From: Arenicola marina | Taxonomy: Eukaryota; Annelida; Polychaeta; Arenicolidae | Direction of reading: 5' to 3' | NCBI GenBank assembly: GCA_964019135.1 | Contig: OZ025261.1 | Coordinates: 32,938,738 to 33,002,737 of the forward strand | DNA: 64,000 nucleotides | Notes under the pieces: generated by a model | Told to the model about the DNA's origin: nothing | The model's database searches: none | The model's input: the letters and a program-made list of their open reading frames with translations, nothing else | Translations under genes and position numbers: made by a program | In this document: piece by piece, positions 3,640-59,575 of the stretch | How positions within the stretch are numbered: the first letter of the stretch is position 1 | How the letters are laid out: each line of letters begins with the position of its first letter

Positions 3640-4515
3640 CAACCAGTGGCAGGCTGGGAGTGGCAGGCCGGGAATGGCAGGCCGGGAGTGGCAGGCCGGG
3701 AGTGGCAGGCTGGGAGTGGCAGGTCGGGAGTGACAGGTCGGGAATGACCTCCCACTTCAGGCCTGCCATTCCCGACCTGCCACTCCCGGCCTGCCACTCC
3801 CGGCCTGCCACTCCCGGCCTGCCACTCCTGGCCTGCCACTCCCAGCCTGCCACTCCTGGCCTGCCACTCCCAGCCTGCCCCTCCCGGCCTGCCATTCCCG
3901 GCCTGCCACTCCCGGCCTGCCACTCCCGGCCTGCCACTCCCGGCCTGCCACTCCCGGCCTGCCACTCCCGGCCTGCCACTCCCGGCCTGCCACTCCCGGC
4001 CTGCCATTCCCGACCTCCCAGTTCAGGCCTGCCATTCCCGACCTGCCACTCCCGGCCTGCCACTCCCGGCCTGCCACTCCCAGCCTGCCACCCCCGGCCT
4101 GCCACTCCCGGCCTGCCACTCCCGGCCTGCCACAACCAGCCTGCCATTCCCGACCTGCCACTCCCGACCTGCCACTCCCAGCCTGCCACTTCCGGCCTGC
4201 CACTCCCAGCCTGGGAATGGCAGGCCGGGAGTGGGGCTGAGGCGTCAATGGGCTGCTTCTGGACCCTAGGGAGGAGCCTGTGACTGCCACTCCCGGCCTG
4301 CCACTCCTGGCCTGCCACTCCCAGCCTGCCACTCCCGGCCTGCCACTCCCGGCCTGCCACTCCCAGCCTGCCACCCCCGGCCTGCCACTCCCGGCCTGCC
4401 ACTCCCGGCCTGCCACTACCAGCCTGCCATTCCCGACCTGCCACTCCCGACCTGCCACTCCCAGCCTGCCACTCCCGGCCTGCCACTCCCAGCCTGGGAA
4501 TGGCAGGCCGGGAGT
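3640..4515. repeat. 15-bp minisatellite with internal inversion
   Basis: About 55 copies of a 15-bp unit, CGGCCTGCCACTCCC on the plus strand. From 3,645 to about 3,745 the unit is in the opposite orientation (GGCAGGCCGGGAGT), then it flips to the forward orientation. A spacer with GTGGGGCTGAGGCGTCAATG appears twice, at about 4,213-4,284 and 4,495-4,566, so a block of about 282 bp was itself duplicated. Because 15 is a multiple of three, several frames on both strands stay open for 160-340 codons. These are repeat artefacts (for example the pentad AGREW on the minus strand). Confidence 0.93.
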
Positions 4516-9772: not shown

Positions 9773-10027
9773 TGAGCATGCGCAGACAGCGGGCTAGGTA
9801 GGGGGAGCAGATTGGCCGCGATAGGGTTAGGTTTAAGCGGGGGGGGTCGATAAGCTGGAGATGGTGGAGGGCTGAGAACAATGCGAACGGCGGCAGGCAA
9901 CATCCTCTTTATATATCTTTATTCGTACTCGGAGTACAGATGACAGTCACAGAGAACAAAGAAAGAACAAGAAGAAATTCAGAGGAACGTCCTAAACGTA
10001 ATTTTTAAAAAAATCAACAGAAACATC

Positions 10028-10051
10028 AACACACACACACACACACACACA
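10028..10051. repeat. AC dinucleotide microsatellite
   Basis: About twelve AC dinucleotides in a row. Confidence 0.95.
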
Positions 10052-10146
10052 AAAACCGGTTTAGGTCTGTGCTACTCAGTGCATAAATACTCGATGATGT
10101 CAGTTATGCCTTCATTGTCGTCAGAACCTGTATTTAGCAGCTGTAT

Positions 10147-10161
10147 CCAGCAGGTGGCGCT
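10147..10161 (+). promoter_or_regulatory. CTCF-like motif
   Basis: The string CCAGCAGGTGGCGCT matches the well-known CTCF core CCAGCAGGGGGCGCT at 14 of 15 positions. The motif is conserved across bilaterians, but one match gives no proof of binding. Confidence 0.4.
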
Positions 10162-11185
10162 TCGATACACAATATCAATTCAGGCGTTAGTCAAGTTTAT
10201 GTCTTGCTAACGAGGGATAAACGCCCGTTTAACGAGGAACCAAGCAAAGGAGCTGCCATGTCACTGGACAGGTGCGTCACTATCTGTAGATATATAATAT
10301 CTGGCTTTCAGCAAGTCATCTGCTCAAGGTCGCGACCTGGAGACGCTACAAACGATATCATGGTGAATAAATGTGATGACGAGTGAACGCCAGTCTCGGC
10401 CAGTCGACATCCCAAGGGTGTCATTATCTGTGTGGTATGTGCAGGACGCATCATGCCCTAACACATATTATTGTTAATGTTATGTAGCGAAGGTTATGTG
10501 GACTGATTGTGGTGCGTTCACTTAAATATCGGCAGTATCGAAGCAAAATATATGTTCAGGTCCGGTCAGATCGATCATTCTATAGTGTCACTTACATCGC
10601 ATTGAATTTATGATATTAAAGTTACATATGGAGCTGACCGTTGCAACGGCTGTACCAATATAAACATAAACAGGAAATGTTACCATTGACCACAAGCAGT
10701 GTCAACGGCCACCGCCAAAGAAAAAGTTGCGCTCCGGACGCTTCTATTGTCTCATATAATTTAGCGCTTGGGCCCCCTGTCGGTGGCACCAGTAAACAAC
10801 TTGTGTGCACACTTTTATGACGTTTCAAATCAGCACAAGTTTTCATTTTTGTGGCGGACAATTCATGAATTTGAAATGTTTTGCTCATTGGCAGATACTT
10901 GGTGAGCGATATGGTAGGTGTTTATTGTTTGTTATGAACCTTAAGGCCTTAGGTTTGTGTGCTTATACGCAAATTTGGCATTCAAAAACAGCGAAACAAC
11001 TCCACATGCAACTTTAATTATTTTATTGGAAATAAAAGCAGCTTGACATTATTAATTATATTAATTATTGAAATGTTAAGTTATTTAACTCAACGTAATC
11101 GTAATACGCGAAATAACGAAACATATTAATTAACGAGATGTACGTTGATAAATGATGAATGTCTGGCAAACAGACACTTGTAACA
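10162..11185. other. gene-free interval
   Basis: AT-leaning sequence with short open frames only (up to 88 codons). Nothing recognised. Confidence 0.5.
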
Positions 11186-11190
11186 GAATA

Positions 11191-11281
11191 CAGACGGTCC
11201 ATGTCCCATCCAGACGGTCCATCTCCAATACAGACGGTCCATGTCCCACACAGACGGTCCATGTCTCGTACAGACGCTTGG
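11191..11281. repeat. 20-bp tandem repeat
   Basis: CAGACGGTCC recurs exactly every 20 bases at 11,191, 11,211, 11,231 and 11,251, with a decayed fifth copy at 11,271. The second half of the unit is ATGTCCCAYM-like. Confidence 0.92.
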
Positions 11282-11289
11282 TTCATAGG

Positions 11290-11893
11290 CCACCGCTTAC
11301 GCCTTATTAGATAAAGGCGCACCACGCCGCCTTCCGTTGTAATGTCTTATCCGTGTAAACGGGACGTTCTGGGAGGGGTTACCTTAGCGCCAAACGCCAT
11401 AACGACAGCGGTGACCGACGTGGAAAGCCTTGTAATGACCCTGGGGGTTTGTGTCGGCTGTCAGCCACCGACAGTGGTGATTGGTGGAGATGGAACACAA
11501 TCACAACCACATGGTCCTTTATTTATTGCACACTACATTTTTGTATTAATGCAATAATTTGTAAATAATATAATAACTATTACCAAATGTTATATTTTCA
11601 TGACAAACTGTATTGAAAAGCTCCGAGAGCCCACTAGGCTCGTGTTTTTTTTACAGAGAATCCAAAAAGTTGTCTTTTCCAATAACCGGCTTAGGAAAAT
11701 ACTCATTATCCAGCATATTTAATTTGGTCCTGAAGCCAAATACATTTTAGTCGGCCCTGGGGCTATTAGATATATTAAATTGTGTATTTGTTGGTGCAAT
11801 TGCCTTGAGGTTGGCAATTGGATTTACTACTTGCCGTAAGCCTGAGGCAATGGCGGACGGGTTACAGTCATGGAGGAAGAAAACTAAATTGTT
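11290..11893. other. gene-free interval
   Basis: Between the 20-bp repeat and the satellite region. Short open frames only; no recognised product. Confidence 0.45.
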
Positions 11894-11937
11894 GATGCTC
11901 GAAGCCACTTTTGTGCACACGAAGACCATCTTGGGCC

Positions 11938-14900
11938 GAGCAGCCTCTCTGACGGGGCTCCCGGGGCAATGAACGGGTGACACATGCCGGTGGGAGGGTA
12001 GGTCTACCGAACAGCCTCTCTGACGGGGCTCCCGGGGCAATGAACGGGTGACACATGCCGGTGGGAGGGTAGGTCTACCGAACAGCCTCTCTGGCGGGCT
12101 CCCGGGGCAATGAACGGGTGACACATGCCGGTGGGAGGGTAGGTCTACCGAACAGCCTCTCTGACGGGGCTCCCGGGGCTATGAACGGGTGACACATGCC
12201 GGTGGGAGGGTAGGTCTACCGAACAGCCTCTCTGGCGGGCTCCCGGGGCAATGAACGGGTGACACATGCCGGTGGGAGGGTAGGTCTACCGAACAGCCTC
12301 TCTGGCGGGCTCCCGGGGCTATGAACGGGTGACACATGCCGGTGGGAGGGTAGGTCTACCGAACAGCCTCTCTGGCGGGCTCCCGGGGCAATGAACGGGT
12401 GACACATGCCGGTGGGAGGGTAGGTCTACCGAACAGCCTCTCTGGCGGGCTCCCGGGGCAATGAACGGGTGACACATGCCGGTGGGAGGGTAGGTCTACC
12501 GAACAGCCTCTCTGGCGGGCTCCCGGGGCAATGAACGGGTGACACATGCCGGTGGGAGGGTAGGTCTACCGAACAGCCTCTCTGGCGGGCTCCCGGGGCA
12601 ATGAACGGGTGACACATGCCGGTGGGAGGGTAGGTCTACCGAACAGCCTCTCTGGCGGGCTCCCGGGGCAATGAACGGGTGACACATGCCGGTGGGAGGG
12701 TAGGTCTACCGAACAGCCTCTCTGGCGGGCTCCCGGGGCAATGAACGGGTGACACATGCCGGTGGGAGGGTAGGTCTACCGAACAGCCTCTCTGACGGGC
12801 TCCCGGGGCAATGAACGGGTGACACATGCCGGTGGGAGGGTAGATCTACCGAACAGCCTCTCTGGCGGGCTCCCGGGGCTATGAACGGGTGACACATGCC
12901 GGTGGGAGGGTAGGTCTACCGAACAGCCTCTCTGGCGGGCTCCCGGGGCTATGAACGGGTGACACATGCCGGTGGGAGGGCAGGTCTACCGAACAGCCTC
13001 TCTGGCGGGCTCCCGGGGCTATGAACGGGTGACACATGCCGGTGGGAGGGTAGGCCTACCGAACAGCCTCTCTGGCGGGCTCCCGGGGCACTGAACGGGT
13101 GACACATGCCGGTGGGAGGGTAGGTCTACCGAACAGCCTCTCTGGCGGGCTCCCGGGGCACTGAACGGGTGACACATGCCGGTGGGAGGGTAGGCCTACC
13201 GAACAGCCTCTCTGACGGGGCTCCCGGGGCAATGAACGGGTGACACATGCCGGTGGGAGGGTCGGCCTACCGAACAGCCTCTCTGGCGGGCTCCCGGGGC
13301 ACTGAACGGGTGACACATGCCGGTGGGAGTGTAGGTCTACCGAACAGCCTCTCTGGCGGGCTCCCGGGGCTATGAACGGGTGACACATGCCGGTGGGAGG
13401 GTAGGTCTACCGAACAGCCTCTCTGGCGGGCTCCCGGGGCTATGAACGGGTGAAACATGCCGGTGGGAGGGTAGGCCTACCGAACAGCCTCTCTGGCGGG
13501 CTCCCGGGGCAACGAACGGGTGAAACATGCCGGTGGGAGGGTAGGTCTACCGAACAGCCTCTCTGGCGGGCTCCCGGGGCTATGAACGGGTGACACATGC
13601 CGGTGGGACGGTAGGTCTACCAAACAGCCTCTCTGGCGGGCTCCCGGGGCTATGAACGGGTGACACATGCCGGTGGGAGGGTAGGTCTACCGAACAGCCT
13701 CTCTGGCGGGCTCCCGGGGCTATGAACGGGTGACACATGCCGGTGGGACGGTAGGTCTACCGAACAGCCTCTCTGGCGGGCTCCCGGGGCTATGAACGGG
13801 TGACACATGCCGGTGGGACGGTAGGTCTACCGAACAGCCTCTCTGGCGGGCTCCCGGGGCACTGAACGGGTGACACATGCCGGTGGGAGGGTTGGCCTAC
13901 CGAACAGCCTCTCTGGCGGGCTCCCGGGGCAATGAACGGGTGACACATGCCGGTGGGAGGGTAGGCCTACCGAACAGCCTCTCTGGCGGGCTCCCGGGGC
14001 TATGAACGGGTGACACATGCCGGTGGGAGGGTAGGTCTACCGAACAGCCTCTCTGGCGGGCTCCCGGGGCAATGAACGGGTGACACATGCCGGTGGGAGG
14101 GTAGGCCTACCGAACAGCCTCTCTGGCGGGCTCCCGGGGCACTGAACGGGTGACACATGCCGGTGGGAGGGTAGGTCTACCGAACAGCCTCTTTGGCGAG
14201 CTCCCGGGGCTATGAACGGGTGACACATGCCGGTGGGAGGGTAGGCCTACCGAACAGCCTCTCTGGCGGGCTCCCGGGGCTATGAACGGGTGACACATGC
14301 CGGTGGGAGGGTAGGCCTACCGAACAGCCTCTCTGGCGGGCTCCCGGGGCTATGAACGGGTGACACATGCCGGTGGGAGGGTAGGTCTACCGAACAGCCT
14401 CTCTGGCGGGCTCCCGGTGCACTGAACGGGTGACACATGCCGGTGGGAGGGTAGGTCTACCGAACAGCCTCTCTGGCGGGCTCCCGGGGCTATGAACGGG
14501 TGAGACATGCCGGTGGGAAGGTAGGTCTACCGAACAGCCTCTCTGGCGGGCTCTCGGTGCACTGAACGGGTGACACATGGCGGTGGGAGGGTAGGTCTAC
14601 CGAACAGCCTCTCTGGCGGGCTCCCGGGGCTATGAACGGGTGAGACATGCCGGTGGGAGGGTGGGACTACCGAACAGCCTCTCTGGCGGGCTCCCGGGGC
14701 AATGAACGGGTGACACATGCCGGTGGGAGGGTAGGTCTACCGAACAGCCTCTCTGGCGGGCTCCCGGGGCAATGAACGGGTGACACATGCCGGTGGGAGG
14801 GTAGGTCTACCGAACAGCCTCTCTGGCGGGCTCCCGGGGCTATGAACGGGTGACACATGCCGGTGGGAGGGTAGGCCTACCGAACAGCCTCTCTGGCGGG

Positions 14901-17900
14901 CTCCCGGGGCAATGAACGGGTGACACATGCCGGTGGGAGGGTAGGCCTACCGAACAGCCTCTCTGGCGGGCTCCCGGGGCTATGAACGGGTGACACATGC
15001 CGGTGGGAGGGTAGGTCTACCGAACAGCCTCTCTGGCGGGCTCCCGGGGCAATGAACGGGTGACACATGCCGGTGGGAGGGTAGGCCTACCGAACAGCCT
15101 CTCTGGCGGGCTCCCGGGGCACTGAACGGGTGACACATGCCGGTGGGAGGGTAGGTCTACCGAACAGCCTCTTTGGCGAGCTCCCGGGGCTATGAACGGG
15201 TGACACATGCCGGTGGGAGGGTAGGCCTACCGAACAGCCTCTCTGGCGGGCTCCCGGGGCTATGAACGGGTGACACATGCCGGTGGGAGGGTAGGCCTGC
15301 CGAACAGCCTCTCTGGCGGGCTCCCGGGGCTATGAACGGGTGACACATGCCGGTGGGAGGGTAGGTCTACCGAACAGCCTCTCTGGCGGGCTCCCGGTGC
15401 ACTGAACGGGTGACACATGCCGGTGGGAGGGTAGGTCTACCGAACAGCCTCTCTGGCGGGCTCCCGGGGCTATGAACGGGTGAGACATGCCGGTGGGAAG
15501 GTAGGTCTACCGAACAGCCTCTCTGGCGGGCTCCCGGTGCACTGAACGGGTGACACATGGCGGTGGGAGGGTAGGTCTACCGAACAGCCTCTCTGGCGGG
15601 CTCCCGGGGCTATGAACGGGTGACACATGCCGGTGGGAGGGTCGGCCTACCGAACAGCCTCTCTGGCGGGCTCCCGGGGCACTGAACGGGTGACACATGC
15701 CGGTGGGAGTGTAGGTCTACCGAACAGCCTCTCTGGCGGGCTCCCGGGGCTATGAACGGGTGACACATGCCGGTGGGAGGGTAGGTCTACCGAACAGCCT
15801 CTCTGGCGGGCTCCCGGGGCTATGAACGGGTGAAACATGCCGGTGGGAGGGTAGGCCTACCGAACAGCCTCTCTGGCGGGCTCCCGGGGCAACGAACGGG
15901 TGAAACATGCCGGTGGGAGGGTAGGTCTACCGAACAGCCTCTCTGGCGGGCTCCCGGGGCTATGAACGGGTGACACATGCCGGTGGGACGGTAGGTCTAC
16001 CAAACAGCCTCTCTGGCGGGCTCCCGGGGCTATGAACGGGTGACACATGCCGGTGGGAGGGTAGGTCTACCGAACAGCCTCTCTGGCGGGCTCCCGGGGC
16101 TATGAACGGGTGACACATGCCGGTGGGACGGTAGGTCTACCGAACAGCCTCTCTGGCGGGCTCCCGGGGCTATGAACGGGTGACACATGCCGGTGGGACG
16201 GTAGGTCTACCGAACAGCCTCTCTGGCGGGCTCCCGGGGCACTGAACGGGTGACACATGCCGGTGGGAGGGTTGGCCTACCGAACAGCCTCTCTGGCGGG
16301 CTCCCGGGGCAATGAACGGGTGACACATGCCGGTGGGAGGGTAGGCCTACCGAACAGCCTCTCTGGCGGGCTCCCGGGGCTATGAACGGGTGACACATGC
16401 CGGTGGGAGGGTAGGTCTACCGAACAGCCTCTCTGGCGGGCTCCCGGGGCAATGAACGGGTGACACATGCCGGTGGGAGGGTAGGCCTACCGAACAGCCT
16501 CTCTGGCGGGCTCCCGGGGCACTGAACGGGTGACACATGCCGGTGGGAGGGTAGGTCTACCGAACAGCCTCTTTGGCGAGCTCCCGGGGCTATGAACGGG
16601 TGACACATGCCGGTGGGAGGGTAGGCCTACCGAACAGCCTCTCTGGCGGGCTCCCGGGGCTATGAACGGGTGACACATGCCGGTGGGAGGGTAGGCCTAC
16701 CGAACAGCCTCTCTGGCGGGCTCCCGGGGCTATGAACGGGTGACACATGCCGGTGGGAGGGTAGGTCTACCGAACAGCCTCTCTGGCGGGCTCCCGGTGC
16801 ACTGAACGGGTGACACATGCCGGTGGGAGGGTAGGTCTACCGAACAGCCTCTCTGGCGGGCTCCCGGGGCTATGAACGGGTGAGACATGCCGGTGGGAAG
16901 GTAGGTCTACCGAACAGCCTCTCTGGCGGGCTCTCGGTGCACTGAACGGGTGACACATGGCGGTGGGAGGGTAGGTCTACCGAACAGCCTCTCTGGCGGG
17001 CTCCCGGGGCTATGAACGGGTGAGACATGCCGGTGGGAGGGTGGGACTACCGAACAGCCTCTCTGGCGGGCTCCCGGGGCAATGAACGGGTGACACATGC
17101 CGGTGGGAGGGTAGGTCTACCGAACAGCCTCTCTGGCGGGCTCCCGGGGCAATGAACGGGTGACACATGCCGGTGGGAGGGTAGGTCTACCGAACAGCCT
17201 CTCTGGCGGGCTCCCGGGGCTATGAACGGGTGACACATGCCGGTGGGAGGGTAGGCCTACCGAACAGCCTCTCTGGCGGGCTCCCGGGGCAATGAACGGG
17301 TGACACATGCCGGTGGGAGGGTAGGCCTACCGAACAGCCTCTCTGGCGGGCTCCCGGGGCTATGAACGGGTGACACATGCCGGTGGGAGGGTAGGTCTAC
17401 CGAACAGCCTCTCTGGCGGGCTCCCGGGGCAATGAACGGGTGACACATGCCGGTGGGAGGGTAGGCCTACCGAACAGCCTCTCTGGCGGGCTCCCGGGGC
17501 ACTGAACGGGTGACACATGCCGGTGGGAGGGTAGGTCTACCGAACAGCCTCTTTGGCGAGCTCCCGGGGCTATGAACGGGTGACACATGCCGGTGGGAGG
17601 GTAGGCCTACCGAACAGCCTCTCTGGCGGGCTCCCGGGGCTATGAACGGGTGACACATGCCGGTGGGAGGGTAGGCCTGCCGAACAGCCTCTCTGGCGGG
17701 CTCCCGGGGCTATGAACGGGTGACACATGCCGGTGGGAGGGTAGGTCTACCGAACAGCCTCTCTGGCGGGCTCCCGGTGCACTGAACGGGTGACACATGC
17801 CGGTGGGAGGGTAGGTCTACCGAACAGCCTCTCTGGCGGGCTCCCGGGGCTATGAACGGGTGAGACATGCCGGTGGGAAGGTAGGTCTACCGAACAGCCT

Positions 17901-20060
17901 CTCTGGCGGGCTCCCGGTGCACTGAACGGGTGACACATGGCGGTGGGAGGGTAGGTCTACCGAACAGCCTCTCTGGCGGGCTCCCGGGGCTATGAACGGG
18001 TGAGACATGCCGGTGGGAGGGTGGGACTACCGAACAGCCTCTCTGGCGGGCTCCCGGGGCAATGAACGGGTGACACATGCCGGTGGGAGGGTAGGTCTAC
18101 CGAACAGCCTCTCTGGCGGGCTCCCGGGGCAATGAACGGGTGACACATGCCGGTGGGAGGGTAGGTCTACCGAACAGCCTCTCTGGCGGGCTCCCGGGGC
18201 TATGAACGGGTGACACATGCCGGTGGGAGGGTAGGCCTACCGAACAGCCTCTCTGGCGGGCTCCCGGGGCTATGAACGGGTGACACATGCCGGTGGGAGG
18301 GTAGGCCTACCGAACAGCCTCTCTGGCGGGCTCCCGGGGCAATGAACGGGTGACACATGCCGGTGGGAGGGTAGGTCTACCGAACAGCCTCTCTGGCGGG
18401 CTCCCGGGGCAATGAACGGGTGACACATGCCGGTGGGAGGGTAGGTCTACCGAACAGCCTCTCTGGCGGGCTCCCGGGGCTATGAACGGGTGACACATGC
18501 CGGTGGGAGGGTAGGCCTGCCGAACAGCCTCTCTGGCGGGCTCCCGGGGCAATGAACGGGTGACACATGCCGGTGGGAGGGTAGGTCTACCGAACAGCCT
18601 CTCTGGCGGGCTCCCGGGGCTATGAACGGGTGAGACATGCCGGTGGGAAGGTAGGTCTACCGAACAGCCTCTCTGGCGGGCTCCCGGGGCTATGAACGGG
18701 TGAGACATGCCGGTGGGAGGGTAGGTCTACCGAACAGCCTCTCTGGCGGGCTCCCGGGGCTATGAACGGGTGACACATGCCGGTGGGAGGGTAGGTCTAC
18801 CGAACAGCCTCTCTGGCGGGCTCCCGGGGCTATGAACGGGTGACACATGCCGGTGGGAGGGTAGGCCTACCGAACAGCCTCTCTGGGGGGCTCCCGGGGC
18901 TATGAACGGGTGAGACATGCCGGTGGGAGGGTAGGTCTACCGAACAGCCTCTCTGGCGGGCTCCCGGGGCTATGAACGGGTGACACATGCCGGTGGGAGG
19001 GTAGGCTTACCGAACAGCCTCTCTGGCGGGCTCCCGAGGCACTGAACGGGTGAAACATGCCGGTGGGAGGGTAGGTCTACCGAACAGCCTCTCTGGCGGG
19101 CTCCCGGGTCTATGAACGGGTGAGACATGCCGGTGGGAGGGTAGGCCTACCGAACAGCCTCTCTGGCGGGCTCCCGGGGCACTGAACGGGTGACACATGC
19201 CGGTGGGAGGGTAGGTCTACCGAACAGACTCTCTGGCGGGCTCCCGGGGCTATGAACGGGTGAGACATGCCGGTGGGAGGGTAGGTCTACCGAACAGCCT
19301 CTCTGGCGGGCTCCCGGGGCTATGAACGGGTGACACATGCCGGTGGGAGGGTAGGCTTACCGAACAGCCTCTCTGGCGGGCTCCCGGGGCTATGAACGGG
19401 TGACACATGCCGGTGGGAGGGTAGGCCTACCAAACAGCCTCTCTGGCGGGCTCCCGGGGCACTGAACGGGTGACACATGCCGGTGGGAGGGTAGGCCTAC
19501 CGAACAGCCTCTCTGGCGGGCTCCCGGGGCTATGAACGGGTGACACATGCCGGTGGGAGGGTAGGCCTACCGAACAGCCTCTCTGGCGGGCTCCCGGGGC
19601 TATGAACGGGTGACACATGCCGGTGGGAGGGTAGGCCTACCGAACAGCCTCTCTGGCGGGCTCCCGGGGCTATGAACGGGTGACACATGCCGGTGGGAGG
19701 GTAGGCCTACCGAACAGCCTCTCTGGCGGGCTCCCGGGGCACTGAACGGGTGACACATGCCTTTGGGAGGGTAGGCTTACCGAACAGCCTCTCTGGCGGG
19801 CTCCCGAGGCACTGAACGGGTGACACATGCCGGTGGGAGGGTAGGCCTACCGAACAGCCGCTCTGGCGGGCTCCCGGGGCACTGAACGGGTGACACATGC
19901 CGGTGGGAGGGTAGGCCTACCGAACAGCCTCTCTGGCGGGCTCCCGGGGCAGTGAACGGGTGACACATGCCGGTGGGAGGGTAGGCCTACCGAACAGCCT
20001 CTCTGGCGGGCTCCCGGGGCAGTGAACGGGTGACACATGCCGGTGGGAGGGTAGGCCTAC
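11938..20060. repeat. 70-bp satellite array, about 116 copies
   Basis: A head-to-tail array with unit CGAACAGCCTCTCTGGCGGG followed by 50 more bases ending in GTAGGYCTAC. Copies are mostly 95% or more identical. A few are 71 bp, with CTGACGGGG. Diagnostic variants are the pair AA, TA or AC before TGAACGGG, GTAGGTCTAC versus GTAGGCCTAC, ACATGG, and GTGGGACTAC. They define higher-order repeats: a 980-bp period (14 monomers) and a 2,380-bp period (34 monomers). The block starting at 13,261 recurs at 15,641. Each monomer has about five CpGs and a CCCGGG. The roughly 40 minus-strand 63-codon frames are shadows; 70 is not a multiple of three. Confidence 0.97.
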
Positions 20061-20635
20061 AGACGTTTGTTTGCCAAGCCTTTCTCATACACAGCTGGTT
20101 GTTTGAGCTGTGGCAGCTGAATCACGTGTTTCATCCATGGCTTGTCGGTAAAACATGCATCCGGAAGTCATGCAGGTGTGCCACTAACCAGGTAACCAAT
20201 TATCTTGTCGTCATTGACATCTTACGCTGTACTCGATGATTAGCTTTTTGCATTGCATGGTTTTGACATTATTTGCCGGCTCTCGTACGATGAAAACGGT
20301 CTCGGCTGTGTCGTTTATTTTTTCTGCTTGATGACTTGTGTTGGAGATAACGATATTACGGCTTGGAAGGGTATCAGGAAATCTTCAGTTTCCTCTGACG
20401 CCATTTCTCTGTCCCGGGAGGTAGCATGGCCCAGAATGCGCTTCAGCGGCTTAAAATACTTTTATTTCATTTCGTTTCATGACCGTGTGTGTCTTCCCCA
20501 TCATTCCAAGAGAATGACAATTAATGTGTCAGTGTCCGTCAGAAATCAAATATCGCCGTATTTCATAAAAGAATTTCCCCCTTACGGGCTGCAACGTCAA
20601 TATATCATTTTCCTCGGTGTTTGGACATTGAACAG

Positions 20636-20755
20636 TACAAAACGGTCACCTCAACGGTACAAATCGGTCACGAAGCAGTAAAACAAATCGGTCTACCGAA
20701 CGGTGCAAATCGGTCACCCGAACTTACAAATCGCTCATCCGAACCCCCTACGCAG
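20636..20755. repeat. 22-bp minisatellite, copy 1
   Basis: About five imperfect units of the type ACGGTACAAATCGGTCACCC. The orthologous position in segmental copy 2 carries the same array at 22,650-22,745. Confidence 0.85.
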
Positions 20756-20828
20756 ACCAATGTACGGAACGGCCATTTTTATATGACTGACATTCTGAAT
20801 AAAAACACAAGTATACTTACGTCTGTGG

Positions 20829-21305
20829 GGGCCTAATGTGTCCTAATCTTTTGTGTCCCTCGTCGCCGTTTCATCGCCCGTTACGATGGCCCACGCTGTG
20901 GGCCCTAAACTGAACCCCTATCCTTAAGCCGTAAGCCCTACCCATAGGCCCTAACTCCTAACTCTCATCCCAATCCCTGACCCTAATCCCTAATATCTGA
21001 CCCTAATCCCTAATATCTGACCCTAACCCCTAATATTTGATCCTAATCCCCAATCCTGACCTCTAATACCTAACCGATGAACCCTAATCCTTGAGCTGTA
21101 ATGCCTCATACCTGACTCCTAATCTTCAATCCCTGACCCTTAATCCCCAATCCAGCATCCCTAATACATAACCGATGATCACTAATGCCCAATCCCTGAC
21201 CCATAACTCTTAATCCCCACGCCTAACAATAATATGGGGAGTGAAACGGCAATGCATGCCACATAAGCCCCGACGAACACATCAGGCCCCCACATGCGTC
21301 CTAGG
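20829..21305. other. telomere-like CCCTAA insertion
   Basis: About 477 bp, much of it made of degenerate CCCTAA, CCTAATCCCTAA and TGACCCTAATCCCTAATATC strings. In the downstream paralogue the flanks are directly joined: GTCCGTGG is followed by AAGTTGG at about 22,830-22,845, whereas here GTCTGTGG at 20,821 and AAGTTAG at 21,306 are separated by the insert. It therefore looks like a discrete insertion of interstitial telomere-like DNA after the duplication, or a clean loss from copy 2. Confidence 0.7.
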
Positions 21306-21639
21306 AAGTTAGAAATGTCACTTGTCTGACTTGAGATATTAATTGCCAATCTATCTCTACCCCAGTTCTTTGACAGCCACTGATTGTGGAAGACGTATAG
21401 CATACACTACCCACCAAGAAATGTGGGTAAAACACGTAACCGGAACCGGAAGCTGTGTAGTGTATCACGAGCGCACTGATCTGCAATATTGAGATGATTG
21501 CTGGCAGGGCAATTAACTATACCCCGAGATCCTATTTTTTGCCTTCCTGTTTAGCGTTCCGTGCCATCGTTATTTTTCGTCCCAGTTTTGCTCGTGTTTT
21601 TTTTAATATGATGTCTCTTTCCGGAGTAGTCGGGGACTG

Positions 21640-21765
21640 ACTTGAATGGGAGGAGGTCGTGGAGAAGGGGAGGAGAGAAGGAAAGATGGTGGGGCGGGAG
21701 GGGAGGGGCGGTAGTAGAGGAGGAAAGGAGAGGGGATGGGGCGGGAAAGGTTTCTCGCGCTAGAT
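21640..21765. repeat. purine-rich tract, copy 1
   Basis: GGGAGGGGAGG-type G/A-rich DNA, the counterpart of the longer tract at 23,170-23,460. Frames through it are low-complexity. Confidence 0.7.
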
Positions 21766-22045
21766 ACGTCTTCCGTAGTGAGAAGAATGGGAGAGCGCAG
21801 AGTGGAGGATAGAGAGTGGACGAGGCCTAGGTGCCTTGCGATGTTGGTTGATCGCCTGATCCAGACGCTTGTCGTTGTCCACATTTTGCTGGCATAAGAA
21901 GGCGGCCGGCTCCAAGCCAGATGGCGACATTACGGCTTCTTTTTCTCACGGAATACACTGCGACATCAATTTGGTGATTTACCATTACACACAACAAAAA
22001 TGAGATGCTGATGCTAGAAGCCACTACATGAAGACTGTCCTGGAA

Positions 22046-22107
22046 CGAACAGCCTCTCTAGCGGGCTCCCGGGGGCAATGACACGCCCCATGGGAGGGTA
22101 CGTCTAC
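22046..22107. repeat. solitary satellite monomer
   Basis: One 62-bp copy of the 70-bp unit (CGAACAGCCTCTCTAGCGGG to CGTCTAC), with an internal loss of about 8 bp. It has the same flanks as the big array: GAAGACTGTCCTGGAA on the left and AGACGTTTGTTT on the right. Confidence 0.9.
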
Positions 22108-22318
22108 AGACGTTTGTTTTACCAATCCTTTCTCATAGACAGCTGTTTGATGAGCTGTGGCAGCTGAATCACGTGTATCATACATGACTTGTGGGTAAAA
22201 CGTGCATCCCGAAGTCATGCGGTGCCACTAACAGGGGAACCAATTGTGTTGCTGTCAATGACATTGTAGGCAGTGATCAGAGGTTAACTCTTTGCATTCT
22301 TGAGACTGAGGAGGAACC

Positions 22319-22480
22319 TTCCCGGTCTCAGTGGGTAAGCAGGTGGAGCTGAAAATCAGCAGGTCGTGGGTTCGAACCCTGGTGCCTACATCCGGGCGAC
22401 TTTCATATAACACCATTTTCTTGTCCCGGGAGGTTTCATGGCGCAGACTGCACTTCATGTGCACGAAAGCGGGCTTAAAA
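22319..22480 (+). mobile_element. tRNA-derived SINE
   Basis: A tRNA-like head has an A box at 22,324-22,334 (GGTCTCAGTGGG-like) and a canonical B box GGTTCGAACCC at 22,369-22,379. It is followed by a body with TGTCCCGGGAGG and a tail ending CACATTTATTTCATTTC. The body and tail recur in segmental copy 1 (about 20,410-20,480), but there the head is not recognisable. Confidence 0.65.
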
Positions 22481-22649
22481 CACATTTATTTCATTTCTTT
22501 TTATGACGGTCCGTGTGTGTCTTCCCCATCATTCCAATAGTATAACAATTGATGTGTCACTGTCCATCAGAAATCAAATATCCCCGGATTTCCAAAAGAA
22601 TCCCCCTTTACCGGCTCCAACGTTAATATCACTGTCGCTGTACCATTGC

Positions 22650-22745
22650 ATGGTACAAATCGGTCACTCGAACGGTACAAATCGGTCACCCAAGGGTACA
22701 AATCGGTTGCCCGAACGGTGCAAATCGGTCGCCCGAACGGTGCAC
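22650..22745. repeat. 22-bp minisatellite, copy 2
   Basis: Four units of ACGGTACAAATCGGTCACCC-like sequence, matching 20,636-20,755. Confidence 0.85.
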
Positions 22746-23169
22746 AAAAACTTCCCCAAACCAACCATCAATGTACTGAGCGGCAATTTTTATGTGATTA
22801 ACATCATAACATAACGTTTCTAGTTACGTCCGTGGAAGTTGGAAATGTCACCTGTCTGACTTGAGCGATCGTTTGCCAATTTATCTCTCCCCGAAATCCC
22901 TTGACAGCCGCTGATGGGGGAAAACGTATAACATATACCACCCAACAAGAAATGTGGGTAAAACACGTAACCGGAAGCTGTGTAGCGTATCGCGAGCACA
23001 CTGCGATATTGGGATGCTTGCTAGCAGGGCAACTACACCCCGAGATCATATTTTGTTCTTTCCTCGTTAGCGTTCCATGCTGACGTCATTTTCCATCCAC
23101 GTTTTGCTCGATGAAAACCGTACTCCATCCCATCACGTGTTTTTTAATATGGTGACTCTTTCCAGAGAC

Positions 23170-23460
23170 TTGAATGGTAGGAGGTCGAGGGGGAGAGGAG
23201 GAAGGAAGGAGAGGGAAAGGGGACGGAAGAAGAGTGGAGGTAGTGGATGAGGGGAGGAAAGGGGATCGGGGTGGGAGAGGAGGGACGGTAGTGGAGGAGG
23301 GGGGATCGGGGTGGGAGAGGAGGGACTGTAGTGGAGGAGGGAAGGAACAGGGAAGAGGGTGGGAGAGCATGGATGGTAGTGGAGGAGAGAGGGAGCGGGG
23401 ATGGGGCGGGAGAGCATAGAAGGTAGTGGAGGAGGGAAGAAGAGGGGATGGGGGCGGGGA
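23170..23460. repeat. purine-rich tract, copy 2
   Basis: G/A-rich DNA with recurrent GGTAGTGGAGGAGGG and GGGTGGGAGAGGA modules. Open frames on both strands here are low-complexity. Confidence 0.8.
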
Positions 23461-23684
23461 AGGTGTCTCCCGCTAGATGCGTCTTCCATGGTGAGAAGAG
23501 GGGGAGAGAGGGTAGGGGAGGATAGAGGGTGGGGGAGGCCCAGGTGCCTCGCCATCTTTGCTGTATGCCTCCTCAAGGCGCTTGTCCTTGTCCACAGTTT
23601 GCTGACATAATACGATGGCCGATAAGACGATATTATGGCTTTGGAGACATTATGCAACAAGCGAGTGAAGGGATCTTTCTACTG

Positions 23685-23985
23685 CAGTGACGGATCTAAG
23701 GGGGGGGGGTTAGGGAGGTTTCCCCTTGGAAAACTGAACATACACTGTTAAAGTCCGGTTCTTCCAGTCCCCCTTCCCCCCCCCCGGTCACAAGTCTTCA
23801 GAGCAGCCCCCCCCGGTCTCAAGTTTTCAGAGAGCAACACCCCTCACCCCTCTTGGGAACCTAAACATACACTGCTAAAGTCGGCTTCTCCGAGCACGCC
23901 CTCCGCACCCCCCCCAGGTCGCAAGTTTTTCAGAGAGCAACCACACTCCCCCCCCCCCCTTGGCAAATTCCTAGATCCGCCCCTG
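23685..23985 (+). mobile_element. MITE with CAGNGGCGGATCTAG termini, copy A
   Basis: A 301-bp element. The left end CAGTGACGGATCTAAG and the right end CTAGATCCGCCCCTG form imperfect terminal inverted repeats. It is flanked by CTACTG on both sides (23,679-23,684 and 23,986-23,991). The paralogous empty site in copy 1 reads CTCACGGAATACACTG without the element, which confirms the boundaries. The interior has C-rich runs and a duplicated CGCAAGTTTTTCAGAGAG-like module. No coding capacity. Confidence 0.88.
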
Positions 23986-24309
23986 CTACTGAATACACTG
24001 CCACGTCATTCGGAGATTTACCACAACACACAGCACCGAATCTGTTTGATACAATAAGGTTGCCCCAGTTCTGTTTTACGGGATTGGGGTAGGCCCTATA
24101 TGGTTTTGAATTCTGATGTCATATTGACAAATCAATAATTACTTTTTGCAAAATGATACCTAGGCAGACCACTAACCAATCCGTTCTTGGAGAATGCGGC
24201 AGACTTCCATCAAGTGTGCAGTATATGCTGAGGTGTATTAAGTATTGGATTAAGTTGGTCTAATGTTAGTCCGCAAGCTTTCCACACTGCTCAATCAGGG
24301 AGTAGGTAA

Positions 24310-24850
24310 TGTTCCAATGTTTTTGGCTTGTGTCAAACAACGTCTGTCAAATATTGCAACACAGGAGTAGTCATCAGCTATTTTCTAAAACAGAAACCTC
24401 GTGCCAATGTAAGACATTACATACACAAGACAAGTTATAAATCAGTTATAATTCAGAGACGTCAAAGATTGCAATGGCAAGTAAGCGCTTTAGTAGTCAC
24501 AATATATCTGTAAAGAAGCTGCGAGGAACTATAGCTCCAGAACTGCCAAGTTCAGTCAAGCCAGATTATCACCGAAGATGAGTTTCATGTTATAATGGAG
24601 TGCACACTGTATATTGACTTATACAGGCGTTACTTACCAGGTTCATGTTCATCTCCTAGATTTGATGTTTGATTTGATAGATTTCAAGTTTCTGTGATAA
24701 GTGATAAATGGCCACAAACAATACTAAAACACTAGAGAATTCGGGTTGTTATATCTATAACATAATCAAATTGAGAAGTAATTTCACCTGACGTATGTAT
24801 ATGCTGTTGTTTTTTTGTACAATAAGAGCCTAATGTCCCTGTATACAATG
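24310..24850 (+). pseudogene. LINE reverse-transcriptase C-terminal fragment
   Basis: The conceptual frame near 24,560-24,660 reads ITEDEFHVIMECTLYIDLYR. This is the C-terminal zinc-knuckle-like signature of several non-LTR retrotransposon proteins (a GR...C..C...EDE.H...C pattern). An upstream frame gives FSSHNISVKKLRGTIAPEL, matching the usual SxHxLxxExGR stretch in a shifted frame. The 5' part is missing and several frame changes are present. It faces the LINE fragment at 25,489-26,205, which has a related domain. The clade is not assigned. Confidence 0.6.
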
Positions 24851-30109: not shown

Positions 30110-33100
30110 CAGCACCTCACCCTACCCTATCAACAACCCTACCCCCATCCTCGCCCAAACTTCACCCTACCCCTACCTCCATCCTACCCCCATCCTCGCC
30201 CAACTTTCACCCCGCCCCTACCTCCATCCTACCCCCATCCCCGCCCAACCTTCACCCCACCCCTACCTCCATCCTACCCCGATCCTCGCCCAACCTTCAC
30301 CCCACCCCTACCTCCATCCTACCCCCATCCCCGCCCAACCTTCACCCCACCCCTACCTCCATCCTACCCCATCCTCGCCCAACCTTCACACCGCCCCTAC
30401 CTCCATCCTACCCCCATCCCCGCCCAACCTTTACCCCACCCCTACCTCCATCCTACCCCCATCCCCGCCCAACCTTCACCCCACCCCTACCTCCATCCCA
30501 CCCCCATCCTCGCCCAACCTTCACCCCACCCCTACCTCCATCCTACCCCCATCCCCGCCCAACCTTTACCCCACCCCTACCTCCATCCTACCCCCATCCC
30601 CGCCCAACCTTCACCCTACCCCTACCTCCATCCTACCCCCATCCTCGCCCATCCTTCACCCCACCCCAACCTGCATCCTACCCCCATCCTCGCCCAACCT
30701 TCACCCCACCCCTTCCTCCACCCCATCCCCATCCTCGCCCAACCTTCACCCCACCCCTACCTCCATCCTACCCCCATCCCCGCCCAACCTTCACCCCACC
30801 CCTACCTCCATCCTACCCCCATCCCCGCCCAACCTTCACCCCACCCCTACCTCCACCCCATCCCCATCCTCGCCCAACCTTCACCCCACCCCTACCTCCA
30901 TCCTACCCCCATCCCCGCCCAACCTTCACCCCACCCCTACCTCCACCCCATCCCCATCCTCGCCCAACCTTCACCCAACCCCTTCCTCCATCCTACCCCC
31001 ATCCCCGCCCAACCTTTACCCCAACCCTACCTCCACCCCATCCCCATCCTCGCCCAACCTTCACCCCACCCCTACCTCCATCCTACCCCCATCCCCGCCC
31101 AACCTTCACCCCACCCCTACCTCCACCCCATCCCCATCCTCGCCCAACCTTCACCCCACCCCTTCCTCCATCCTACCCCCATCCTCGCCCAACCTTCACC
31201 TCACCCTTACCTCCATCCTACCCCCATCCTCGCCCAACGTTCACCCCACCCCTACCTCCATCCTACCCCCATCCTCGCCCAACCTTCACCCCACCTCTAC
31301 CTCCATCCTACCCCCATCCTCGCCCAACCTTCACCCCACCCCTACCTCCATCCTACCCCCATCCTCGCCCAACCTTCTCCCCACCCCTACCTCCATCCTA
31401 CCCCCATCCTCGCCCAACCTTCATCCCGCCCCTACCTCCATCCTACCCCCATCCCCGCCCAACCTTTACCCCACCCCTCCCTCCATCCTACCCCCATCCC
31501 CGCCCAACCTTCACCCCACCCCTACCTCCATCCTACCCCCATCCTCGCCCAACCTTCACCCCACCCCTACCTCCATCCTACCCCCATCCCCGCCCAACCT
31601 TCACCCCACCCCTACCTCCATCCCACCCCCATCCTCGCCCAACCTTCACCCCACCCCTTCCTCCATCCTACCCCCATCCCCGCCCAACCTTCACCCCACC
31701 CCTACCTCCATCCTACCCCCATCCTCGCCCAACCTTCACCCCACCCCAACCTGCATCCTACCCCCATCCCCGCCCAACCTTCACCCCACCCCTACCTCCA
31801 TCCCACCCCCATCCTCGCCCAACCTTCACCCCACCCCTTCCTCCATCCTACCCCCATCCCCGCCCAACCTTCACCCCACCCCTACCTCCATCCTACCCCC
31901 ATCCTCGCCCAACATTCACCCCACCCCAACCTGCATCCTACCCCCATCCCCGCCCAACCTTCACCCCACCCCAACCTGCATCCTACCCCCATCCTCGCCG
32001 AACCTTCACCCCACCCTTACCTCCATCCTACCCCCATCCTCGCCCAACCTTCACCCCACCCCAACCTGTATCCTACCCCCATCCTCGCCCAACCTTCACC
32101 CCACCCCTACCTCCATCCTACTCCCATCCTCGCCCAACCTTCACCCCACCCCTACCTCCACCCCATCCCCATCCTCGCCCAACCTTCACCCCACCCCTAC
32201 CTCCATCCTACCCCCATCCTCGCCCAAACTTCACTCCACCCCTACCTCCATCCTACCCCCATCCTCGCCCAATCTTCACCCCACCCCTACCTCCATCCTA
32301 CCCCCATCCTCGCCCAACCTTCACCCCACCCCTACCTCCATCCTACTCCCATCCTCGCCCAACCTTCACCCCACCCCTACCTCCATCCTACCCCCATCCT
32401 CGCCCAACCTTCACCCCACCCCTTCGTCCACCCCATCCCCATCCTCGCCCAACCTTCACCCCACCCCTATCTCCATCCTACCCCCATCCTCGCCCAACCT
32501 TCACCCCACCCCTACCTCCATCCTACCCCCATCCTCGCCCAACCTTCACCCCACCCCTACCTCCATCCTACCCCCATCCTCGCCCAACCTTCACCCCACC
32601 CCTTCCTCCACCCCATCCCCATCCTCGCCCAACCTTCACCCCACCCCTATCTCCATCCTACCCCCATCCTCGCCCAACCTTCACCCCACCCCTACCTCCA
32701 TCCTACCCCCATCCTCGCCCAACCTTCACCCCACCCCTACCTCCATCCTACCCCCATCCTCGCCCAACCTTCACCCCACCCCTACCTCCATCCTACCCCC
32801 ATCCTCGCCCAACCTTCACCCCACCCCTACCTCCATCCTACCCCCATCCTCGCCCAATCTTCACCCCACCCTTCCTCCATCCTACCCCCATCCTCGCCCA
32901 ACCTTCACCCCACCCCTACCTCCATCCTACTCCCATCCTCGCCCAACCTTCACCCCACCCCTACCTCCATCCTACCCCCATCCTCGCCCAACCTTCACCC
33001 CACCCCTTCCTCCACCCCATCCCCATCCTCGCCCAACCTTCACCCCACCCCTACCTCCATCCTACTCCCATCCTCGCCCAACCTTCACCCCACCCCTACC

Positions 33101-33530
33101 TCCATCCTACCCCCATCCTCGCCCAACCTTCACCCCACCCCTTCCTCCACCCCATCCCCATCCTCGCCCAACCTTCACCCCACCCCTATCTCCATCCTAC
33201 CCCCATCCTCGCCCAACCTTCACCCCACCCCTTCCTCCACCCCATCCCCATCCTCGCCCAACCTTCACCCCACCCCTACCTCCACCCCATCCCCATCCTC
33301 GCCCAACCTTCACCCCACCCCTATCTCCATCCTACCCCCATCCTCGCCCAATCTTCACCCCACCCCTACCTCCATCCTACCCCCATCCTCGCCCAACCTT
33401 CACCCCACCCCTACCTCCATCCTACTCCCATCCTCGCCCAACCTTCACCCCACCCCTACCTCCATCCTACTCCCATCCTCGCCCAATCTTCACCCCACCC
33501 CTACCTCCACCCCATCCCCATCCTTACCTC
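30110..33530. repeat. 45-bp C-rich minisatellite, about 76 copies
   Basis: Unit CCAACCTTCACCCCACCCCT followed by ACCTCCATCCTACCCCCATC and CTCGC, 45 bp. Since 45 is divisible by three and C-rich DNA lacks stops, all three forward frames stay open. Two give proteins of 1,232 and 1,155 residues (15-residue units PTFTPPLPPSYPHPR and PNLHPTPTSILPPSS). A 1-bp shorter unit near 32,870 shifts the frames with no effect on openness. Unit variants (CATCCT/CACCCC, CTACCC/CTACTC, CCAACCTGC) recur in runs, showing block duplication. There is no start context, signal peptide or non-repetitive domain, so I call it non-coding. Confidence 0.93.
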
Positions 33531-38610: not shown

Positions 38611-38932
38611 CGACACCGGTGTGGTACGACTTCGGACACCGGTGTGGTACGACCTCGGACACCGGTGTGGTACGACCTCGGACACCGGTGTGGTACGGCC
38701 TCGGACACCGGTGTGGTACGACCTCGGACACCGGTGTGGCACGACCTCGGACACCGGTGTGGTACGACCTCGGACACCGGTGTGGTACGAACTCGGACAC
38801 CGGTGTGGTACGACCTCGGACAGCGGTGTGGTACGACCTCGGACACCGATGTGGTACGACCTCGGACACCGGTGTGGTACGACCTCGGACACCGGTGTGG
38901 TACGACCTCGGACACCGGTGTGGTATATTTGA
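38611..38932. repeat. 23-bp minisatellite, about 14 copies
   Basis: Unit CCGGTGTGGTACGACCTCGG plus ACA, 23 bp, very homogeneous, with the 10-bp palindrome ACACCGGTGT across each junction. Because 23 is not a multiple of three, frames cycle through the unit on both strands. The 100-190 codon open frames are artefacts. Directly left is a GTGTGTG/GGGGG tract (38,540-38,570). Confidence 0.95.
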
Positions 38933-50291: not shown

Positions 50292-50775
50292 GGGGCCCAC
50301 AATGGTCCATGGGATGGCAGGGTGGAACCAGAACGAGGGCGGCGCCAGCAATGGTCCAGGGAAGGCAGGGTGGAACCAGAACGAGGCCGGCGCCGGCAAT
50401 GGTCCAGGCAAGGCAGGGTGGAACCAGAACGAGGGCGGCGCCGGCAATGGTCCAGGGATGGCAGGGTGGAACCAGAACGAGGCCGGCGCCGGCAATGGTC
50501 CAGGAATGGCAGGGTGGAACCAGAACGAGGGCGGCGCCGGCAATGGTCCAGGAAAGGCAGGGTGGAACCAGAACGAGGGCGGCGCCGGCAATGGTGCAGG
50601 GATGGCCGGGTGGAACCAGAACGAGGTCGGCGCCGGCCATGGTCCAGGGATGGCAGGGTGGAACCAGAACGAGGGCGGCGCCGGCAATGGTCCAGGGATG
50701 GCAGGGCGGAACCAGAACGAGGTCGGCGCCGGCCATGGTCCAGGGATGGCAGGGTGGAACCAGAACATGGGGGTG
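50292..50775. repeat. 48-bp minisatellite, ten copies
   Basis: Unit GGTCCAGGGATGGCAGGGTG then GAACCAGAACGAGGGCGGCG and CCGGCAAT, 48 bp. At least five of the six frames stay open through it, including a 257-codon plus frame with the 16-residue unit AGWNQNEGGAGNGPGM. Differences between copies change the amino acid more often than not (M/K, G/A/V, N/H, P/A, W/R), so I see no sign of protein-level constraint and treat it as non-coding. Confidence 0.92.
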
Positions 50776-55158: not shown

Positions 55159-55339
55159 CAGGGGCGGATCTAGGGGCGGGGGGTTACGGGGGTGGGAACC
55201 CCCTCCCCCCTCGGGAACCCGAACATACACTGTTAAAGTCGGCTTCTCCGAGCAGGCCCCTCCGCCCCCCCCCCCCGGTGTCGCAAGTTTTTCAGAGAGC
55301 AACCCCCCCCCCTTTGGCAAATTTCTAGATCCGCCCCTG
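55159..55339 (+). mobile_element. MITE with CAGGGGCGGATCTAG termini, copy B
   Basis: A 181-bp element with near-perfect ends CAGGGGCGGATCTAGG and TCTAGATCCGCCCCTG, flanked by TGCCT on both sides (55,154-55,158; 55,340-55,344). It shares TGTTAAAGTCGGCTTCTCCG and CGCAAGTTTTTCAGAGAG with copy A but is about 120 bp shorter inside. It sits in the endonuclease region of the LINE: removing it and one TGCCT leaves an open frame across the junction. Confidence 0.92.
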
Positions 55340-57676: not shown

Positions 57677-59575
57677 ATGTACCAGGCGCGTAAGTCATGG
57701 GTGGAACAAGGCCGACCGCGTGACCCGACAAACGTAGGGTATAAGACGTATAAGAACCTGAAACGTCGTGTTAGACTTACCTTAAGGAAGTTAAAGCACG
57801 AGAGTGATGAAGAATTCTTCCAGGAGATCGATAGACAAGCTGAAGTGGACCAAAACAAGTTCTGGTCGCTCGTCAACAAGAAACTGTCTGTGTGGATCGA
57901 CTATTTTAGGGACATGTATTCAGAGACCCACATCACGAACGACGATCAGAATCAATTTGACCAATCCCACGACCGATTCATTCAAACCGCGGTAAAGCAG
58001 TTGTGGCAGCAAATACCTTCAGAGAAAGATGACATTTGCCAAGGGTTTGCCTATTCCGACATCGACAATGCTATAAAAACGTTGAAACCAGGGAAGAAAG
58101 GAGGCCACGACAACATAAATAATGAGCATGTGAAATTTGGAGGCAGTAATTTAATATTATGCTTAAATAACCTCTTCAACGCCATGTATACATATGAGTA
58201 CGTTCCAAAGGATTTAAAAAAAGGTACTATCTACACATTGTACAAGGGATCGAATAAGTATGAAGACGACAGGCGAAATTACCGTGGAATTTCACTACTT
58301 CCTGTAATTGCCAAACTATTCCATAAAGTAATTCTGTCAAAGGTAAAAACATGGATTAATGTCAATCGCGTAGACTTTCCTTCGTCCAACCAGAATGCCT
58401 ATCAAGAATCTATGTGCAGCCTCTTAGCGTCTTATAGTGTTCAGGAATGCATTAATTACAACCGCGAGAGGGGATCCGGTGTGTACTTGGCCCTGTTAGA
58501 TTCGTCTTGCGCTTTTGATACGGTGTGGCACGAAGGGTTGTTTTACAAATTGCATTCCTTCGGCATCAGAGGCAAAATTTGGTCCTTATTATACTCGGCG
58601 TACCAAGGTATGGTCTCAAATGTGGTATGTAACGGCATTAAATCCGAAGACATACCTATCAGTAGGTCTGTGCGCCAGGGTTCTGTGTTAGGGCCTTGGT
58701 ATTACATGCTATATATACACGAATTAGCAGTTGCGCTTGGTAGCTCTGTGTATGGCGCACGCATTGGTGACATAATATGCGGCGGCATACTCCAAGCTGA
58801 CGACATTGCCGTATGTGCTCTAACGAATTCTGCCTTGCAGGCACTGGTAAGCGTCTGCGAAAACTACAGCCGAAGGTGGCAATTTAAATATAATCCAACC
58901 AAGTCGAAGGTAATGTTTTTTGATAGCAAATTACGAAGAGTTAAAAAGGCAAATGCATGTCAGATTGCGCTATATAACGAGCGTGTGGAAGAAGTCCAGG
59001 TATACAAACATGTGGGAATTCACCTCGATGTCAATCTCTCCTCAACATGGGCGGTGGAGGAGGCGACTAAAAAGCTTAAGAGGGGCTTAATGAGCATCCT
59101 GTCAGTCAACACAAAGAATGCAATCACCGCTTTGAAACCGTATCGATGTATTGTCATTCCGCCGGCCCTCTATGGTGCTGAGTCATGGAATCATCTGACA
59201 CACAACCACCTAGCGAAACTTGAAGCGGCCCACAATGGCGCCATACGATGTATTCAAAATTTTCCAAAATGCTCCGGTGCGACCATTGCCCGCAGTATGG
59301 CTAACGAAATGTCTCTTGTGGAAGAAATTTATAAAAAGAAGCTAACAATTCTTGGCAGATTATGTCGGCTCAAAAATACCGCATTAGCGAAACGCATATT
59401 TGTGGAACGTCTCTATCAATCCCAGGGCCCAGGGCCAAAGTTTGGGTATATTAGGGACATCATAGAGATCCTGAAGAAATATAATCTAGAAGGAATCGTT
59501 TTTAGGTTCATGGATAACAGCAACGGTCCAACTGTTAACCACCAAATTGTCCCAACCAAAATACAGACGCCTTGA
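57677..59575 (+). pseudogene. LINE reverse transcriptase (632 codons open)
   Basis: The order of motifs is normal for a non-LTR RT. RNYRGISLLPVIAKLFHKVI is followed by the first catalytic Asp in LALLDSSCAFDTVWHEGL, then VRQGSVLGPWYYMLYI, then the catalytic pair in LQADDIAVCALT, and then the thumb (VYKHVGIHLDVNLSSTW, LYGAESWNHLTHNHLAKLEA). QADD replaces the more usual YADD or FADD. Near residues 66-72 (WSLVNKKLSVWIDYF) a stretch usual before the WxxYF motif appears deleted in frame. The frame joins the endonuclease upstream across one stop and overlaps the C-terminal frame by a +1 shift near 59,550. This is the longest real coding relic in the window. Confidence 0.9.

Follow-up and report, generated by a model that had tools for sequence, protein, structure and literature searches.

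Positions 11877–24036 of the window, the 64-kb stretch of Arenicola marina DNA analysed here, hold a tandem duplication of an approximately 2-kb unit, whose copies end near 21996 (copy 1) and 24036 (copy 2). Copy 1 comprises a left flank (11877–11935), which is the start of the duplicated segment, an expanded array of 116 monomers of 70–71 bp (11936–20059), delimited by TRF and by direct splitting, and a body (20060–21997). Copy 2 comprises a left flank (21993–22044), a single diverged monomer of 62 bp (22045–22106), located by alignments and a core match, and a body (22107–24036). All of these features are read on the forward strand; flank and body limits come from alignments between the copies, supplemented by genome probes for the body of copy 2. 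The first-pass annotation had described a tandemly duplicated segment of roughly 2 kb carrying one monomer in one copy and about 116 in the other between common flanks. This description holds: the copies are collinear, their flanks align on both sides, and 1 and 116 monomers are counted.

The left flanks pair over 11877–11934 (58 bp) and 21993–22043, with 40 identities, 11 mismatches, and 7 gap columns. On the right, 20061–20793 pairs with 22108–22804, and 21297–21938 with 22827–23641, each at about 83% identity over non-gap columns; 21948–21996 pairs with 23988–24035 at the right end of the segment. Homology between the bodies is broken by insertions. Comparisons within the window give E-values of 7e-58 for 22046–22298 against 19991–20254 and of 5e-9 for the left flank together with the monomer. 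The premise that the flanks on either side of the monomer can be aligned is thus borne out, and the identical junctions on both sides agree with the earlier view that copy number changed in place. The two copies differ at 181 of 1,078 aligned sites (16.8%; K2P 0.191, or 0.096 per lineage) in a sample of six segments chosen so as to skip insertions and a purine-rich stretch. No convincing homology to copy 2 was found to the left of 11877 in within-window alignments; a pairing of 10000–11880 with 21280–21995 is gappy (score 46.5) and was not accepted.

The duplication junction truncates a dispersed element fragment at 21938–21997 (forward strand), which was recognized from genome probe matches and which we take to be LINE-like. 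In copy 1 the fragment ends at 21997, at the start of the left flank of copy 2; in copy 2 it extends to 24086. Cut at the first site and running on at the second, it matches the junction expected from a tandem duplication.

The copies have since diverged through insertions and losses. The LINE-like fragment of copy 2 harbors an insertion that is absent from copy 1 (23684–23987, forward strand), defined by alignment of the flanking pieces: in comparisons with fetched loci, the fragment aligns at 23635–23684 and 23987–24086, on either side of it. The ends of this insertion are presumably hAT-like. The insertion is C-rich, and related sequence is present at 55159–55339 of the window. Copy 1 alone carries a dispersed repeat of 463 bp with degenerate CCCTAAT-like internal units (20834–21296, forward strand), for which the genome search reported 58 matches, the best 40 of 438 candidates being scored; at the corresponding site copy 2 has just 22805–22826. 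A SINE occupies 22304–22480 of copy 2 on the forward strand, as established by genome search (59 matches reported, the best 40 of 321 candidates scored) and by alignment of the copies. Its head is tRNA-like as judged by eye, and ARAGORN, run with the bacterial code, found no tRNA in the 64-kb window. Copy 1 keeps a recognizable SINE tail alone (about 20389–20475), the head being missing. At two other places in the genome, C9:25590203–25591180 and C13:34400733–34401117, the tRNA-like head of this SINE is repeated at a spacing of approximately 72 bp, as if the head had become a tandem array.

TRF reports the array of copy 1 at 11936–20060, with a period of 70, 116.0 copies, and 96% matches. Direct splitting yields 116 head-to-tail monomers, 112 of them 70 bp and four 71 bp long; 37 distinct forms occur among them, and the last monomer ends at 20059. 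The mean pairwise difference between monomers is 4.0%, and monomers 115 and 116 are identical. Self-comparison and the order of the monomers reveal a perfect repeat of 2,392 bp within the array (13232–18003, forward strand), with starts at 13232 and 15612 and a lag of 2,380 bp, equivalent to 34 monomers. Further perfect repeats (425-bp, at lags of 14, 20, and 48 monomers) are also present. Blocks of monomers have thus been duplicated within the array, and these perfect block repeats suggest that unequal exchange is active; the count of 116 would capture one moment in an array that is still undergoing exchange.

The 29-base core of the monomer matches copy 2 at 22046 with 0 mismatches. The single monomer previously placed at 22046–22107 is real, and the register of the array puts the same stretch at 22045–22106. 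When it is aligned by hand with the closest monomer type actually present in the array, 5 of the 60 compared sites carry substitutions, three of them fixed differences from the array and two of them states unseen in it; the indels are gaps of 8 bp and 2 bp and two insertions of 1 bp each. Automatic pairwise alignment counts 5 mismatches against 55 identities, with 12 gap columns, and a MAFFT alignment with all monomers gives 13 mismatches over 62 positions, with the indels placed differently. The 8-bp loss may have occurred between two TGA triplets. Copy 2 contains no second or partial monomer, the flank alignments abutting the single monomer on both sides. A candidate for an extra monomer downstream, from the comparison of 21990–22300 with 23950–24600, was rejected as a merely gappy alignment (score 36.5).

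We searched the genome assembly (867,369,267 bases in 762 contigs, with the window lying within the 41.5-Mb contig C14) for other occurrences of the monomer and of the segment. With up to 3 mismatches allowed, the 29-base core has 113 matches genome-wide, all on the forward strand, with 0 on the reverse strand and 0 in a reversed control. The window itself holds 113, namely 112 in the array and the one at 22046, so the core occurs nowhere else. All 53 matches reported for a dimer query fall in the array of copy 1, and no second array of this monomer was found with this query among the 762 contigs; its sensitivity is limited, as it missed the monomer of copy 2 itself. A dispersed or centromeric satellite family is ruled out by this confinement of the dimer matches and the core to one locus. 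With head-to-tail monomers of 70 bp (within the 10–100 bp range of minisatellites, or VNTRs) in 116 copies at one locus, the array is a single-locus minisatellite, private to this locus.

The segment is equally restricted. A 90-base probe from copy 2 has two genome matches, and probes of the right flank, the middle body, and the lower body each match exactly two places, copies 1 and 2. Unique sequence to the left of copy 1 matches itself, along with two dispersed matches of approximately 40 bp. A probe of 21815–22050 returned itself and 24 matches to a LINE-like part of approximately 50 bp; it missed its counterpart in copy 2, so weakly conserved further copies of the segment could go unnoticed. 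The genome-wide count of the flanking block, proposed in the first-pass annotation as a check, accordingly stands at two copies, both here, a result that cannot choose between expansion and contraction.

Divergence was used to compare the ages of the array and of the duplication. The average distance of an array monomer from the type nearest to copy 2 is 2.7%, below the divergence of the flanks between the copies (K2P 0.191). The edge monomers are also little changed: monomers 1 and 116 both lie 2 substitutions away from the same type, and monomer 1 has a 1-base insertion besides. Had both been frozen since the duplication, approximately 6.7 substitutions would be expected in each, and a total of 4 or fewer has a Poisson probability of 0.003. 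Little-changed edges together with an array divergence lower than the copy divergence make it probable that the array in its present form postdates the duplication. The edge-monomer test is not decisive, since refreshment of the edges by exchange would yield the same result, and the 'frozen edge' model behind it is doubtful. The monomer of copy 2 is itself less diverged (5/60) than the flanks, a difference that is not significant (p = 0.085).

The distribution of monomer types bears on which state is older. The type nearest to copy 2 is found intact in 17 of the 116 monomers (numbers 3, 5, 7–12, and nine later positions), with 8 of the 17 among the first 12 monomers. The first 14 monomers are the closest to this type, at 0.9% compared with about 3% elsewhere. 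At 26 columns that are polymorphic in the array, taken from the 112 monomers of 70 bp with the four 71-bp monomers excluded, copy 2 agrees with the nearest type at 24 and has, at the other 2, a state not seen anywhere in the array. Such a pattern is compatible with an array grown from one founder monomer of this type. The test is weak, since closeness to copy 2 was the reason for choosing the type and the 26 sites are mostly rare variants.

On the evidence internal to this one genome, we favor an ancestral single monomer followed by in-place expansion in copy 1, with a probability of roughly 0.7. In the proposed sequence of events, a segment of approximately 2 kb with one 70-bp motif would have been duplicated in tandem, with the right breakpoint within the LINE-like fragment. 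The motif of the upstream copy would have been duplicated later and then multiplied in place to 116 monomers, by unequal exchange or block duplication, while that of the downstream copy would never have expanded and would have decayed with its flanks. The first-pass annotation had called the single monomer the ancestral state in its heading, with a loss in copy 2 allowed for in its text. The internal evidence leans toward expansion in copy 1; ancestry as such is probable, and contraction retains part of the probability. As a counterpoint, concerted evolution of an old array would also produce low diversity and little-changed edges.

The best-surviving alternative is that the array predates the duplication, with both copies inheriting several monomers and copy 2 collapsing through recombination between its first and last monomers. 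Such an event would leave one monomer with both outer junctions intact, as seen in copy 2, and exchange within the array appears active. Such a reduction to a single unit has moreover been measured in yeast: according to PMC4232551, the CUP1 array collapsed to one unit in 6 of 135 derivatives, at about 7.6e-7 per division. We nevertheless consider this history rather unlikely, as it requires an extra step and the little-changed edges of copy 1 fit a young array. The array states in copy 2 also all come from one monomer type (24 of 26 sites, with 2 unique), an argument that shares the weakness of the column test.

An assembly artefact, affecting either the length of the array or the single-monomer copy, is highly improbable. 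A perfect internal repeat of 2.4 kb could be mis-stacked, and the exact count of 116 would be the fragile part under such a reading; against it stand the 37 distinct monomer forms and the divergence of the flanks between the copies. Helitron-related elements of bivalves carry an internal satellite of variable copy number, and dispersed repeats are present inside the segment, but the idea that the segment is itself a mobile element of this kind has no direct evidence and is scarcely credible, given that the three body probes find two places each, both at this locus, that the monomer core is absent elsewhere within 3 mismatches, and that the dispersed parts of the segment behave as separate insertions or fragments.

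For the favored expansion in copy 1, the motif was presumably first duplicated in a rare event involving little homology or none, and later growth would have proceeded by unequal exchange or duplication of monomer blocks, to which the block repeats point. In the model of Haber and Louis (1998), as cited in PMC4232551 and PMC6947457, direct repeats of 5–10 bp lie at the edges of the founding motif. No such repeats in register flank the motif in either copy; the exact 5-bp matches there are out of the 70-bp register (one in copy 2, at a distance of 80, and three in copy 1). The absence of a flanking repeat, which a slippage model would call for, counts against the favored reading; erosion by later mutation could account for it.

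A special DNA structure as the driver of expansion is unsupported. Four monomer strands and one dimer have folding z-scores between −0.15 and −1.05, indicating an unexceptional hairpin potential, and |G4Hunter| reaches at least 1.2 in 0.2% of array windows compared with 11.5% outside the array within the 64-kb window. A two-tetrad motif is present in the root-type monomer and absent from the monomer of copy 2. We think it distinctly improbable that the ability of a copy to expand was settled by such monomer differences, the 8-bp loss or the disappearance of the weak G-run motif. If it was, the locus would be a natural paired experiment, with the same motif in two neighboring homologous contexts, and competence for expansion could be narrowed down to a few bases.

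For hypervariable minisatellites (VNTRs) of primates, unexpanded forms are reported to exist in related species (Gray and Jeffreys, 1991). Such VNTRs are short-monomer arrays at a single locus that come and go at a fixed site, and the present locus resembles them in this; it differs in that its unexpanded counterpart is paralogous, lying in the same genome, and not orthologous. The Haber and Louis model, as cited in the sources above, likewise starts from a unique motif that is duplicated and then expanded by slippage or unequal crossing-over, but with flanking 5–10 bp repeats that are absent in register here. The yeast CUP1 locus, as described in PMC4232551, resembles the present one in that it occurs both as a single copy and as an array, that homology at its junctions is short or absent, and that it collapses through unequal exchange or similar recombination. 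It differs in having a gene-bearing unit of 1.2–2 kb and in that its states were compared across strains, not between paralogs.

The process is already described in print, and the locus is of an ordinary kind with an informative paralog. The state from which a tandem array started is usually overwritten, and a one-unit paralog between the same flanks can serve as a local outgroup that helps to polarize variants in the array and to bound its time of growth. The earlier description of the pair as unusually informative is partly fair, but 116 is a momentary count in an exchanging array. The pair adds one case of a process that is already accepted, and it takes a true outgroup to resolve its ambiguity.

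Searches for a coding or RNA role of the locus point to none: no Rfam family reached its gathering score in the 64-kb window, and Pfam applied to 9 chosen ORFs of the 52 listed gave one reverse transcriptase. An open frame of 632 aa at 57677–59575 carries the reverse transcriptase domain RVT_1 (E 5.5e-23). The window also contains minisatellites at 30138–33524 (45 bp × 75), 3748–4496 (14 bp × 53), 38612–38925 (23 bp × 14), and 50300–50766 (48 bp × 10). Elsewhere in the assembly, contig C762 (15,942 bases), read with the invertebrate mitochondrial code, carries COX1, which was matched to its family. The longer open frames of this contig lie on one strand and are, by our assignment, ND4L, ND4, a gap where the rRNAs would lie, ND1, ND3, ND2, COX1, COX2, COX3, ND6, CYTB, ATP6, and ND5, which we take to be the annelid gene order.
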